DNA of 64,000 nt from assembly GCF_022482905.1 (NCBI RefSeq), contig NZ_JAKVOI010000001.1, positions 1,303,958-1,367,957 of the forward strand. The letters run 5' to 3'. Below, one piece after another: positions 3,664 to 60,468 of the stretch (position 1 is its first letter; every line of letters begins with the position of its first letter). The position numbers were made by a program, and so were the translations under genes. The DNA comes from Clostridium sp. GTDB taxonomy: Bacteria > Bacillota > Clostridia > Clostridiales > Clostridiaceae. Under the pieces are notes generated by a model. The model was not told the DNA's origin, searched no databases, and was given only the letters and a program-made list of their open reading frames with translations.

Positions 3664-5536
3664 GTCGAGTAGACTTACACCTCACAATGTAAGCCCCTCA
3701 CAGAATCCGTACGTGCGGCTTTCCCGCATACGGCTCCTCATAATAACATTCACAGTTAAAACAGTTTAAAATATATCTTTGGTCTTGCTAGCGGATAATA
3801 CTTTAGCATTTCTGTATATCCATCCCAGCAGTAGCTTTTCTTATCACTTCGTCTGTTAAGAGTCTTACATAGAAATTTCTGTACTCTATGCAAAAAGTTT
3901 GTTATCATCTTACCATTGAAAGATACGCCATAGTACCTATAATGCCCAACCAATTTCAGATTTAATGCCTTTATCATTTCTTTAACCGGCATAGTTCTAT
4001 TATCATATAGCCACTTTTTAGTATTCTTCAGCTTTTGTCTGAATTTCTTCCTACTTGTTTGCAGCTTGATACATGGATATCCTCTGCGACTTCTTCCACA
4101 GAAAAATGTAAATCCTAAGAAATCGAATGTTTCTGGTTTTCCCTCCCCCCTTGCTTTCCGATTACTTTCTGCATATTTGCCAAATTCAAGCAATCTACTT
4201 TTACTATCTTCAAGTTCTAGGTTAAACTTTGCCATTCTTATCTTAAGTTGTTCATAATATTTCTTTGCTTCCCATTTATACTGGAATCCTGCTATAAAAT
4301 CATCTGCGTAAACTACAAGGAAGCTATCTCCCTTAATTCCTTTTGAGAAAATAATCTTGTACCATAATATCAAAACATTGTGCATATAAATGTTTGCTAT
4401 TATTGGACTCATTATATTTCCTTGCCCAGAACCATCCATGCTTTCCTGAAATACTCCATCGGTCATTACACCAGCTTTCAAGTATTTCTTAATCAGCCAT
4501 AATACATTGGGGTCTTTTATGTACACTCCTAAAAATTTCATTATCCACTCATGATTCATATGGTTAAAGAATCCTTTGATATCTGCATCAACAATGTAGT
4601 TTATCTTTCCACTATGCATTCTGTTGTATACTTCCTTTATAGCATCATGACAACCACGTCTTGGTCTGAAACCATACATAATTCTTAGAAATCTTGGTTC
4701 ATAAATTGCCTCCAGTATTTTCTTAACCGCAAATTGTACTATCTTATCTTCATAGGATGAAATTCCTAACGGTCGCATTTTACCATTACCTTTTGGTATA
4801 AATACTCTTAATGATGGTAACGGCTTGTATGACTTATTCTTTAGTCTTGTTACTAGGTTTGATATATTTTCTTCTAGATTTACTTCATACTCTGCTTTTG
4901 TAACTTTATCAATGCCTACTGCCTTCTTCCCGTCCAGTTCTCTGTGACATTGTTTAAGCATTTCAGCATTAATATGATGATACAGTGAAGTAAATTCTGG
5001 TCTTCTTGTATGGGCTGATATTTCTGCTATTCTTTCTAATTTTGTTTCCATCATTTCTCCTGTCCCTGAGTACAGATGATGTGTCCTCAGAAAGATTGTT
5101 ATTATGTAGTCTCCTTCCCTCCACTGGCATTACCCAGTCTCATCAGTACTATGAGACTATCCGACTGCCTGTCATTCATTTGACATTCTCCGTTTTATTG
5201 TCGTTTGCCATACTTATTCTCAAGAAACAACAGGCTCTCCCCAGTTGATAATTAACCATAGTGTAATGCATGATTGGCCCTTTGACCCCGCAGTGCCACA
5301 TAGTTCTTGCCATTATGACTTATGTGATGTTGTTTTCCGCAGTAATTAATACGTCAACCATCTGGATGTATAAAATTTCGAGGCTCAATAGCTCTTCAAC
5401 CCTACTTTCTCGCTGTCTACGCTTAGCTCCCACCATTACTGATGATGACAACTCAAGACTCGCTACTGTTGGTTGGCTAGACCTTACTCAGACAGGATTT
5501 CCACCTGCTAGGTTAATTACCCTTTGCTGGGCGCAC
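3664..5536 (-). mobile_element. group II intron, apparently full length
   Basis: On the minus strand the element begins with the group II 5' consensus GTGCG at 5536. It ends with a recognisable domain V at 3703-3736 (GAGCCGTATGCGGG...CCGCACGTACGG, with the catalytic AGC) and a domain VI hairpin at about 3664-3700. The 3' end is placed at ...CTACTCGAC (3664) by analogy. The stretch 5055-5536 has no gene and would form domains I-III, while the reverse transcriptase ORF fills domain IV. The intron sits between genes, 24 bases downstream of the 151-aa effector-domain gene, so it interrupts no reading frame. The 3' boundary may be off by a base or two. Confidence 0.85.
3756..5054 (-). CDS. ltrA: group II intron-encoded reverse transcriptase/maturase
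   Basis: This 432-aa protein splices and mobilises its own intron. Visible are the reverse transcriptase blocks RVFIPKGNGKMRPLGI, the IVDADIKGFFNHMNH palm motif, the GSGQGNIMSPIIANIYM motif and the catalytic VVYADDF box. A maturase/X domain follows (WLYDNRTMPVKEMIKALN...GHYRYYGV) and ends in ARPKIYFKLF. No HNH endonuclease domain follows, so insertion would rely on routes that need no En domain. The ATG has an AGGAGA ribosome-binding site. The frame is intact, so the intron may be active. Confidence 0.93.
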   Translation of the reverse strand: MMETKLERIAEISAHTRRPEFTSLYHHINAEMLKQCHRELDGKKAVGIDKVTKAEYEVNLEENISNLVTRLKNKSYKPLPSLRVFIPKGNGKMRPLGISSYEDKIVQFAVKKILEAIYEPRFLRIMYGFRPRRGCHDAIKEVYNRMHSGKINYIVDADIKGFFNHMNHEWIMKFLGVYIKDPNVLWLIKKYLKAGVMTDGVFQESMDGSGQGNIMSPIIANIYMHNVLILWYKIIFSKGIKGDSFLVVYADDFIAGFQYKWEAKKYYEQLKIRMAKFNLELEDSKSRLLEFGKYAESNRKARGEGKPETFDFLGFTFFCGRSRRGYPCIKLQTSRKKFRQKLKNTKKWLYDNRTMPVKEMIKALNLKLVGHYRYYGVSFNGKMITNFLHRVQKFLCKTLNRRSDKKSYCWDGYTEMLKYYPLARPKIYFKLF

Positions 5537-38978: not shown

Positions 38979-39188
38979 CTATTTTTCATTCTCCTCCCCC
39001 TCATAAATAAAAATATCTTCAATACTCATGTTAAAATATCTTGCTATTTTAAAAGCCAGTATTATTGATGGATTATATCTGCCATTTTCAAGAGACCCTA
39101 TTGTCTGCCTCGATACTTCAAGAGCCGCCGCCAGATCTTCCTGTTTTAACCCATGTTTCTTTCGTATTTCTTCCAGCCGGTTTTTCAC
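38979..39188 (-). CDS. small XRE family regulator
   Basis: The 69-aa protein is essentially one Cro/C1 helix-turn-helix: LEEIRKKHGLKQEDLAAALEVSRQTIGSLENGRYNPSIILAFKIARYFNMSIEDIF, a type common in Firmicutes. The start is a GTG after AGGAGG; an ATG two bases upstream reads straight into a stop. It has a good sigma-A promoter with an inverted repeat overlapping the transcript start. No linked membrane partner gene remains. Confidence 0.88.
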   Translation of the reverse strand: MKNRLEEIRKKHGLKQEDLAAALEVSRQTIGSLENGRYNPSIILAFKIARYFNMSIEDIFIYEGEENEK

Positions 39189-39270: not shown

Positions 39271-39360
39271 GAAGTCTTTGTGGCTAATTTAATTTTTTAA
39301 ATTAATTTCGATTTTTTTACAATTTATAGAGGAAATTTTAAATTATTGTAGAATGTATAA

Positions 39361-39406: not shown

Positions 39407-39550
39407 ATGAAAAACGTCAAAGGATTCATAACAAAAAATTTAATGAAAGGCATTGGTTCTTTAGCATTGGTATTGGGGGCATTGGTTATATTCCCTAATT
39501 CCCTTGCTAGTGGTTATCAGCCAAAATGCCCTGATGAACTGCTGAAGTAA
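39407..39550 (+). CDS. agrD: AgrD-like cyclic autoinducer precursor peptide, 47 aa
   Basis: This 47-codon ORF lies directly before agrC and agrB. It has an amphipathic/hydrophobic N-terminus (FITKNLMKGIGSLALVLGALVIF) and an acidic C-terminal recognition segment, YQPKCPDELLK, that matches the YQPK/QPExP-EL motif of clostridial AgrD. The ring Cys usually found six residues before QP is Ser32 here (SLASG-YQPK), so the product may be a lactone rather than a thiolactone. The only Cys (Cys41) lies inside the recognition segment. The ribosome-binding site GGGAGG is 9 bases before the ATG. Confidence 0.82.
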   Translation: MKNVKGFITKNLMKGIGSLALVLGALVIFPNSLASGYQPKCPDELLK

Positions 39551-39557
39551 TTTAAAT

Positions 39558-39612
39558 TAGGCTTTTCTATAGATATTTCTAATTTGTAATATGATATCTA
39601 CAGGAAAGCCTA
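39558..39612 (+). promoter_or_regulatory. large hairpin between agrD and agrC
   Basis: TAGGCTTTTCTATAGATAT (39558-39576) pairs with ATATCTACAGGAAAGCCTA (39594-39612) with two mismatches. No T run follows, so it is not a standard terminator. It may stabilise the agrD message or lower transcription into agrC and agrB. Confidence 0.5.
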
Positions 39613-39636
39613 GATCAACTATATTAGGAGAAAAGT

Positions 39637-40965
39637 ATGTACATTATAAGAGAACTAATAACAGATAGTATAGAATCTATACTTTTTTTAGTAACTTTTG
39701 AAGCCTTATATAACAACAAAAAATTTATACAAGAAAATAAACTTAAAACTATTTATTTTTGTATATTATATATTATTGCTAATTATTTTAGTACTTTTTA
39801 TATTAGTAAAGTATACCACACAATATTTCTTTCAATATTTTGCATCTTACTATTATCATATATTGCAAAGATACGAATTTTTGCTTCGTGTGTAATATTT
39901 TTCCTATTTCTTTCCATAATTTTTGTTACAGAAAATTTTATCCAAGCAGTTGGAATATTTATATATAATATAAATTTAAATACATTCTTATCAATTAAAG
40001 AATATTACGTGATTTTTTTAATTACTTCAAAATTACTTCAAATATTTATCGTGATACTCATTTTTAGGTTTAATAAAATCTTTATTAAACTTAAATTATT
40101 TAATTCAAAAGATAAAATGTTATCAGAGTCAATAATTCAATTTGGTATTTTCGGTCTTATTATATTTATTATGAGTTTTGGTATTTTTAATGTAAAATAT
40201 ATTAAAATTTACAACTGTACTGTATTTATTTTATACTTTATATTTTTAATACTTCAATTAAAAGAGATAAACAGATACAAAAAGATGCTAAACATAGAAT
40301 CCAGATATAAAATCCAAGAAAGTCAAATAAGCAACATGGAAGAAATAATCAGTATCATCAGGCAGGAAAAGCATGATTTTGCAAATCATATCAATGTTAT
40401 ATGGGGACTTTGCTCATTAAACAGACCAGATACCGTTGAAAAAATAAAAAATTATATAAACGGAATATCAGGTAATCTCCATTCATCATTTAAATTTATA
40501 AATACAGGCAATGCCTATTTAGACGGATTATTATCCATTAAAAATAATTTTGCCGATAAAAACAATATAGACCTTGATATAATGATTGATGAGCCCTTCA
40601 GCAAATTAAACATTAAAGAAAATGAATTGATAAGCATTGTAAGCAATCTTATAGACAATGCATTTGAAGCATTTCAGTCCAATCCCAATACTGAAAATAA
40701 AAAAATAACCTTTGATACTTTTATTGAAGGCAGTAAATTTTATATTGAAATTTCCGACAATGCAGGTATGATCCCTAAAAATATTCAAGATAGAATTTTT
40801 GAAAGAGGTTTTTCTACAAAGACTGAAAAATCGGATGATCATGGATTTGGTCTGTACATTACCAGGCAGTTGATAGAGCAAAATAATGGATGCATATCCC
40901 TGGAAAGTAATCTTGAAACCACAAAATTTTTAGTTGCATTTAACTTGGAGGAGGCAGATAAATGA
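39637..40965 (+). CDS. agrC: AgrC-like sensor histidine kinase (GHKL type)
   Basis: The 442-aa protein has an N-terminal membrane domain of six or seven helices (about residues 1-205), a linker coiled coil, the phosphoacceptor helix IIRQEKHDFANHINVIWGL and a GHKL ATPase domain (NELISIVSNLIDNAFEAF, then EISDNAGMIPKNI and DDHGFGLYITRQLIEQNNG). It would detect the secreted cyclic peptide. It overlaps agrB by 4 bases. The partner response regulator AgrA is not in this window. Confidence 0.9.
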   Translation: MYIIRELITDSIESILFLVTFEALYNNKKFIQENKLKTIYFCILYIIANYFSTFYISKVYHTIFLSIFCILLLSYIAKIRIFASCVIFFLFLSIIFVTENFIQAVGIFIYNINLNTFLSIKEYYVIFLITSKLLQIFIVILIFRFNKIFIKLKLFNSKDKMLSESIIQFGIFGLIIFIMSFGIFNVKYIKIYNCTVFILYFIFLILQLKEINRYKKMLNIESRYKIQESQISNMEEIISIIRQEKHDFANHINVIWGLCSLNRPDTVEKIKNYINGISGNLHSSFKFINTGNAYLDGLLSIKNNFADKNNIDLDIMIDEPFSKLNIKENELISIVSNLIDNAFEAFQSNPNTENKKITFDTFIEGSKFYIEISDNAGMIPKNIQDRIFERGFSTKTEKSDDHGFGLYITRQLIEQNNGCISLESNLETTKFLVAFNLEEADK

Positions 40966-41513
40966 ACACTTTCATAACTTGTTTGGTAAAAAAAATTTCC
41001 GAGTCAAATCCTGAATTCTCAAAACTTCAATTAAAAAAGATGGAATATGGTTTGATTTGTTTCTTTGATGAAATTACAAAATTAGTCCCTTACTTTATTA
41101 TATTCTGGATATTTTCTGTTCAGGACTATTATCTGATTGCCCTTTTGTTTTTTTGTCCAATTAGATTGTTTTCAGGCGGTTACCATGCAAAAACTTATTG
41201 GGGCTGCTTTTGCATTAGTTTTATCGTATTTCTATCAATAATTACTTTAGGCAGATATCTGTCAATAAATATTGTGGTCTTGATATTATTATTGACTATT
41301 TCTTTTGTATTAATTTGTATTTTTTCACCAGTAGACAATATCAACAAAAAAATAAAAAGTGAAAAAAGAAAGGTTTTACTTAACCACCTTTCTATATTAG
41401 CTGCCTTATCTCTAATTGTAGCTTGCTATTTTATTCCGGATAAGTTTCTGAATACCGCTGTAATATCAATTCTCAGCTCAACAATAATGATGATGCTTGG
41501 AAAAATAATTTAG
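40962..41513 (+). CDS. agrB: AgrB-like peptidase and exporter
   Basis: The 183-aa membrane protein (about five helices) processes AgrD and forms the ring. The conserved stretch PIRLFSGGYHAKTYWGCFCISF supplies the catalytic His and Cys. The N-terminus has YGLICFFDEITKLVPYFIIFW. It begins within the agrC stop (ATGA overlap), which confirms co-translation. The order here, agrD-agrC-agrB, differs from staphylococcal agrBDCA. Confidence 0.95.
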   Translation: MNTFITCLVKKISESNPEFSKLQLKKMEYGLICFFDEITKLVPYFIIFWIFSVQDYYLIALLFFCPIRLFSGGYHAKTYWGCFCISFIVFLSIITLGRYLSINIVVLILLLTISFVLICIFSPVDNINKKIKSEKRKVLLNHLSILAALSLIVACYFIPDKFLNTAVISILSSTIMMMLGKII

Positions 41514-60132: not shown

Positions 60133-60393
60133 TTATCTGGGTTGAATAATTAGTTTTATTGCAGTTCTCTCCTCACCATCTATTTCAACATCTGTAAAAG
60201 CCGGAATGCATATTAAATCGATTCCACTGGGTGCCACAAAGCCTCTAGCAATAGCTACTGCCTTGATAGCCTGATTCAGCGCTCCAGCCCCTATAGCCTG
60301 TATTTCAGCTTCCCCACGTTCTCTCAACACTCCTGCTAGTGCTCCTGCTACAGAATTTGGACTTGATTTTGCTGAAACTTTTAATACTTCCAT
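60133..60393 (-). CDS. spoVS: stage V sporulation protein S
   Basis: This 86-aa protein belongs to the highly conserved SpoVS family: VLKVSAKSSPNSVAGALAGVLRERGEAEIQAIGAGALNQAIKAVAIARGFVAPSGIDL, then IPAFTDVEIDGEERTAIKL. It affects sporulation progression and has an Alba-like fold thought to bind nucleic acid. It has AGGAGGG before the ATG and a probable sigma-H promoter upstream. Location next to rny is common in clostridia. Confidence 0.97.
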   Translation of the reverse strand: MEVLKVSAKSSPNSVAGALAGVLRERGEAEIQAIGAGALNQAIKAVAIARGFVAPSGIDLICIPAFTDVEIDGEERTAIKLIIQPR

Positions 60394-60441: not shown

Positions 60442-60468
60442 ATTCTACAAAAATTTAAAAATTCCTTT
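60442..60468 (-). promoter_or_regulatory. sigma-H-type promoter of spoVS
   Basis: On the minus strand AAAGGAATT (60460-60468) and GTAGAAT (60442-60448) are 11 bases apart. This fits the sigma-H pattern RnAGGAwWW-N11-12-RnnGAAT completely. The -10 element lies about 50 bases before the spoVS start. spoVS of Bacillus subtilis is known to be sigma-H-dependent. Confidence 0.7.

Follow-up and report, generated by a model that had tools for sequence, protein, structure and literature searches.

Autoinducing peptides (AIPs) closed through serine are already known. In Clostridium thermocellum an AgrD-type serine lactone pentapeptide is reported to have been confirmed by LC-MS/MS, and consequently a five-residue ring closed by serine is known clostridial chemistry and a serine ring alone is not new (PMC5322536). 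That system resembles the locus described here in the serine-closed five-residue ring, the Tyr at +1 and the Pro at +6, whereas its AgrD is reported not to lie in any apparent agr operon. Likewise, serine replaces the ring cysteine in the AIP of S. pseudintermedius, which however belongs to a staphylococcal agr (PMC3673130, PMC12312760), and in the GBAP of E. faecalis, which differs in its nine-residue ring and fsrBDCA locus (PMC12312760). The agrBDCA system of S. aureus shares with the present locus the catalytic-type residues of AgrB, the architecture of AgrD and a kinase receptor, but has a cysteine ring, an adjacent agrA and RNAIII, and another gene order. Agr System 1 of C. autoethanogenum, a type also reported for C. 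ljungdahlii and others, has the order agrD-agrC-agrB, no agrA and a Pro-X-X-Pro tail (PMC8748961), as does the locus studied here; this comparison rests on the published description, and the words serine, SigH and hairpin do not appear in the main text of that paper. In contrast to the genome studied here, in which a single agrD of this type is found, C. autoethanogenum possesses an additional agrD-agrC pair, which shares one AgrB, and its spo0E is placed downstream of agrB (PMC8748961), whereas in the relatives surveyed here Spo0E-like genes lie upstream of agrD and none was found beside our locus.

The window, i.e. the whole stretch of 64,000 nucleotides of Clostridium sp. DNA that was analysed, holds the following features at this locus.

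39328..39354, + strand: SigH-type promoter motif, a strict match 52 bases 5' of the agrD start
39407..39550, + strand: agrD, a 47-residue signal precursor matching TIGR04223 and kept in relatives
39500-39514, + strand: predicted ring Ser32-Gly36, placed by the AgrD register
39558..39612, + strand: stem-loop between agrD and agrC, from folding against shuffles
39637..40965, + strand: agrC-type histidine kinase (SPOB_a 43.1 bits, HATPase_c 59.3 bits)
40962..41513, + strand: agrB, protease/cyclase (PF04647 131 bits)

The three genes agrD, agrC and agrB are a real operon and one tight unit, in which the end of agrC runs 4 bases into agrB and the 47-codon agrD ORF has a strong Shine-Dalgarno sequence (GGGAGG); the peptide, the gene order and the spacing recur in relatives, which is more than chance. 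No AgrA-type regulator adjoins agrDCB, no LytTR match occurs anywhere in the window and no Rfam match at the gathering score was found near agr; the locus is not a canonical agr operon (agrBDCA with RNAIII). While agr is an ordinary kind of system, this is a distinct variant of it, and we give a probability of about 0.7 to the reading that the locus is the signal-and-receptor half of agr, transcribed by SigH and producing an SLASG lactone through Ser32, with the tail that bears Cys41 being discarded. The complete genome (3.57 Mb, single contig) contains three LytTR matches, one of which adjoins a second, divergent agr locus (G000:C1:1057000-1059800; L005:3024-5775), where agrA (LytTR)-agrC faces agrB-agrD on the opposite strand. 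The precursor of this second locus, AgrD2, reads SFVFL|GEPKPPKSLLK, so that both AgrD precursors found in the genome are Ser-type, and its counterparts in three relatives (L042, L043 and L044) have Ser, Cys and Ser, respectively, as ring residue. A small HTH_3 regulator (38979-39188, - strand) is divergent from agrD.

That an agr-type locus with a Ser-type AgrD-like peptide lies before agrC and agrB had been claimed in an earlier note on this DNA, and the ORFs agree with it, as do the TIGR04223 and PF04647 matches. Alignment with the AgrD family, the check proposed there, gives 31.8 bits against TIGR04223 quorum_AgrD (cut-off 19), with residues 10-47 on model positions 1-38 and leader, ring and tail in register; the small ORF is conserved, AgrD being kept in relatives. 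The C-terminus, NSLASGYQPKCPDELLK, carries the tail YQPKCPDELLK and is read as SLASG|YQPKCPDELLK, where Ser32 (TCC at 39500) stands six residues ahead of QP, just as the note had placed it, and five ahead of Tyr37; Cys41 (TGC, 39527-39529) is the sole cysteine. Other AgrDs of the family share this register, e.g. CWWFV|YQPEEPKCL, and those sampled across it mostly read SAC-xxxx|YQPEEPxxL, an agreement with Cys-ring AgrDs that bears out the small-residue ring SLASG predicted by the note. In a survey of 110 loci, 3 of them unparsable, the residue at -5 was Cys in 84 of the remaining 107, Ser in 7, Thr in 1 and another in 15, several of these 15 having Cys one place earlier and some arising from the parser taking another frame. 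With Ser32 in the place of the ring Cys at -5, the precursor is not of the thiolactone type, and the ring of the signal, as judged from its register, is probably a lactone formed through serine and not through the usual cysteine.

The tail of this peptide defines a group. Cys is kept at +5, the position of Cys41, in 52/52 AgrDs of the type, while their ring residue is Ser in 37, Thr in 6 and Cys in 9. The first 36 were chosen by a rule that requires this Cys; their ring residue is Ser in 28 and Cys in 8, and their +5 codon is TGT in 27 and TGC in 9. A subsequent set came from an alignment search built from 16 +5-Cys AgrDs in which the Cys itself was not demanded, and which matched 28/215 genomes of the order and 24/391 of the class (E 0.001); in the order it gave 42 matches scoring at least 54 bits, and in the class another 9 scoring at least 42 bits. 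All of these, plus one metagenome AgrD found via its AgrB, keep the Cys, including three AgrDs without Pro at +3 (QQVKC twice, QQIKC once). Where weaker matches were readable, the Cys was absent and the AgrDs were ordinary ones of other types, such as the order matches L267-L270, which have a Cys ring and Glu at +5; L271, L284, L289, L291, L295, L296 and a few more weak matches fall, wholly or in part, outside this reading. Outside the type the ring residue is Ser in 4 and Cys in 84 among 103 (one of the 4, L228, also has Cys one place earlier), so Ser/Thr to Cys is 43:9 in the type vs 4:84 outside (Fisher p 2e-22), a p value not to be taken literally because few origins lie behind the contrast, and each member of a nearly identical pair is counted (G001 a and b, and CTFSG from two genomes). 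The earlier note's point that a serine ring departs from the usual thiolactones is incomplete: in this lineage Ser/Thr is the rule, and a Ser lactone AIP had already been reported in C. thermocellum. The Cys that it called unusual and unexplained is a mark of the entire clade. Thr occupies the ring position in TMVLS, TFFTS, TLWFF, TLILS, TFFLT and TMFLM (L274, L276, L280, L281, L282 and L236), predicting Thr lactones.

The partner AgrB (183 residues) scores 131 bits against a PF04647 cut-off of 23, and its catalytic-type Arg68, His75 and Cys82 are found in 75/75 AgrBs aligned; they share the 7-and-7 spacing of R70, H77 and C84 of S. aureus AgrB, numbers taken from PMC10196373 and not from an alignment. 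The AgrBs partnering +5-Cys AgrDs are one clade (support 100/94), to which, by AgrD +5 Cys, AgrB Cys33 and tree position, the window locus is assigned. Cys33 (codon at 41058) is present in 33/33 clade AgrBs, at pairwise identities down to 30%, vs 1/42 others, and the lone outsider (G012_B3) partners CVLSA|YQPKEPEC, with Glu at +5. Tyr44 sets the clade apart more cleanly still (33/33 vs 0/42), and Lys40, Phe48 and Tyr79 mark it likewise. The 33 include the AgrB of C. luticellarii (G008), whose agrD lies beyond the contig end; a duplicate C. psychrophilum row and one G019 row were left out of the tree, a broken second agrB of G011 was not used and the AgrB of G378 was not found. Another candidate partner for Cys41, AgrB Cys65, was perfect in 20 AgrBs and was rejected once far relatives were added, as it is missing in 7/33, and only Cys33 remains; it is the natural partner on grounds of chemistry only, the association of Cys33 with Cys41 being a correlation in one clade with one evolutionary origin. 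Neither phmmer nor a profile search found a solved AgrB structure, the one match being unrelated (E 0.56). The order D-C-B is usual in the clade, though not universal (D-B in G019).

AgrC (442 residues) combines SPOB_a and HATPase_c domains with a membrane half that is polytopic as judged by eye, and carries the probable phosphoacceptor His246 in HDFANH; against the NCBIfam staphylococcal AgrC it scores 33.2 bits, far under the cut-off of 500. In a midpoint-rooted tree of 34 AgrCs, 27 beside Ser rings and 7 beside Cys rings, the ring label must change 5 times, well-supported branches forcing at least 3 of these changes, and 36-38 of 500 shuffles are equally low in label changes. The 7 Cys rows nest within a group of kluyveri- and ljungdahlii-like genomes (a Cys-ring pair from another family of the order, G207 with CTLAG, is not included in this tree), and in the deep half of the AgrB clade every ring is Ser or Thr (11/11); on these trees Cys rings appear to be derived. 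Three genomes each have one intact agrB of the type found alongside mixed AgrDs of the type: five in G004 (three Ser, two Cys), three in G007 (two Ser, one Cys) and five in G011 (one Ser, four Cys). If all these AgrDs are processed, one AgrB would close both Ser and Cys rings in each of them. In one relative (L088:1348-2628) a transposase-like ORF, identified by eye, takes the agrC place of an agrD-agrC pair.

The promoter motif before agrD, AGAGGAAAT-N11-GTAGAAT, has a spacing of 17 nt between AGGA and GAAT, and SigH promoters are described as having these two elements 17-18 nt apart (PMC12456013). A strict match occurs within 150 nt of 27/37 agrDs, the window's included, against a mean of 0.1 and a maximum of 1 in shuffles; 8 of the 10 agrDs lacking it miss one of 16 positions, and the boxes are better conserved than spacer and flanks. 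Among control ORFs, which include loci fetched twice, 13/258 have the motif, and all 13 encode small membrane proteins ahead of a different type of agrB. Within the clade it precedes 31/41 agrDs of the window's half (a further 4/4 included) and 0/11 of the deep half, which rules it out as a mark of the clade as a whole. The genome encodes SigH (375.7 bits, cut-off 294.8), and the agrD promoter would be under SigH control; a SigA-type -10 overlapping the motif is possible. The strict motif occurs twice in the 64-kb window (0.39 expected; 10/100 shuffles reach 2), the second copy (60442-60468, - strand) lying 48 bases before an 86-residue ORF (60133-60393) that is SpoVS-like by eye, and spoVS is reported among the SigH-dependent genes of C. 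difficile (PMC7438776). The stem-loop folds at -22.6 kcal/mol (z -3.9 vs dinucleotide shuffles), and a z below -2 against mononucleotide shuffles was obtained for 25/29 agrD-agrC spacers, the window's among them, although their sequences differ; three spacers, one above 300 bases and two below 25, were not folded.

Based on these features, we hypothesize that SigH RNA polymerase would transcribe agrD-agrC-agrB at the transition to stationary phase, as the promoter motif suggests, and that the stem-loop 3' of agrD may keep the agrD message above that of agrC-agrB. AgrB would cut AgrD after Gly36 by means of Arg68, His75 and Cys82 and hold the peptide as an acyl-enzyme, whereupon the hydroxyl of Ser32 would take the acyl group and close the five-residue lactone, a step modelled on homology and on the C. 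thermocellum lactone. The product is expected to be cyclo(SLASG), either bare or extended by a short N-terminal tail (calculated [M+H]+ 416.21, or 530.26 with Asn31), whereas YQPKCPDELLK would act as the AgrB recognition part before being discarded. Cys41 would then be a lineage-wide non-ring residue that may go with AgrB Cys33 by packing or thiol chemistry. The lactone would be sensed by AgrC, with the response regulator encoded elsewhere, although receptor binding is hard to picture because the C-terminal Gly and the LASG ring offer no bulky residues such as many known AIPs have.

A ring located elsewhere, either with Cys41 as nucleophile, the alternative that the earlier note had raised, or as a six-residue Ser32-Tyr37 ring, is highly unlikely. 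Cys41 is the only cysteine of the window AgrD, and PMC12312760 mentions AIPs with rings of six residues; yet Cys41 falls on the C-terminal side of the predicted cleavage site, in the tail that would be removed, and stays fixed while the ring residue varies, even in the 9/52 relatives that already have a ring Cys, and for these reasons a ring through Cys41 was rejected. Against the larger ring, position +1 varies among Tyr, His and Gln in the type, and Cys-ring AgrDs mostly have Tyr or His there. Slightly less probable still is a decaying agrD from which no signal is made: the small, low-bulk ring, the absence of agrA and the broken second agrB of relative G011 would fit it, but the frames are intact, the Shine-Dalgarno sequence is good, and promoter motif, hairpin and tail are conserved, while in C. 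autoethanogenum the double agrD deletion is reported to give a phenotype (PMC8748961).

A far more serious contender, which we place only somewhat short of even odds, is that Cys41 has no thiol-specific role and marks the lineage neutrally, being an ordinary part of the tail that AgrB recognises. Position +5 is mostly Glu and also Met, Ile, Val or Pro in other AgrDs, which indicates that the family tolerates many residues there, and Cys33 is one among several marks of its AgrB clade. Against this, Cys41 is invariant through two different codons and stays where Pro at +3 is lost, and Cys33 is fixed down to 30% identity. A broader and rather doubtful proposal goes beyond the serine lactone reading, namely that an old agr lineage makes Ser/Thr lactones, that the thiol pair of AgrD Cys(+5) and AgrB Cys33 serves AgrB in binding, gating or driving the cut and the lactonisation, that one AgrB is thereby able to close Ser, Thr or Cys rings, and that this allowed agrD-agrC pairs to multiply in relatives as several private channels behind a single enzyme.

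As to output, Spo0E-like genes lie upstream of agrD in 10/36 loci by a text rule, three of which were tested and confirmed by PF09388; no spo0E-like ORF was found beside the window locus, the genome having four elsewhere, and such a neighbor was therefore rejected as a fixed part of the locus. Together with the SigH motif, these neighbors suggest an output at the stationary-phase/sporulation switch; that Spo0A connects the system with the sporulation/solvent switch would be a guess. In C. autoethanogenum, deletion of both agrDs is reported to shift the ethanol:acetate ratio and to lower several Wood-Ljungdahl proteins (PMC8748961); the clade includes gas-fermenting clostridia, in which agr signalling is thus described as already affecting product ratios. 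Judged from the sequences compared, what is new is the clade context, with its fixed Cys pair and its switching among Ser, Thr and Cys, more than the Ser ring; a search for clostridial Ser/Thr AgrD rings among titles and abstract openings in the open-licence literature found no description of this clade, which is weak evidence of absence. The switching of the ring nucleophile while the tail stays constant, with what is apparently a single AgrB in some genomes, offers a natural experiment on how AgrB builds its high-energy ring and on the reason for lactones among AIPs, and the invariant Cys pair is a concrete and testable candidate for an AgrD-AgrB contact.

The genus sample comprised 13 genomes. 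Across the loci surveyed, a third agrB type (L080, L082, L084, L085, L087 and L089) is preceded by two or three membrane proteins of about 155 residues (MLKLHWIEIFLR...) with SigH-type motifs; its AgrDs, where read, follow the pattern CxWxx|YQPEEPECLRK, and a protein of about 620 residues is encoded downstream. Elsewhere in the window, 3664-3738 and 5276-5501 (- strand) match group II intron domains (Rfam RF00029 and RF02005).
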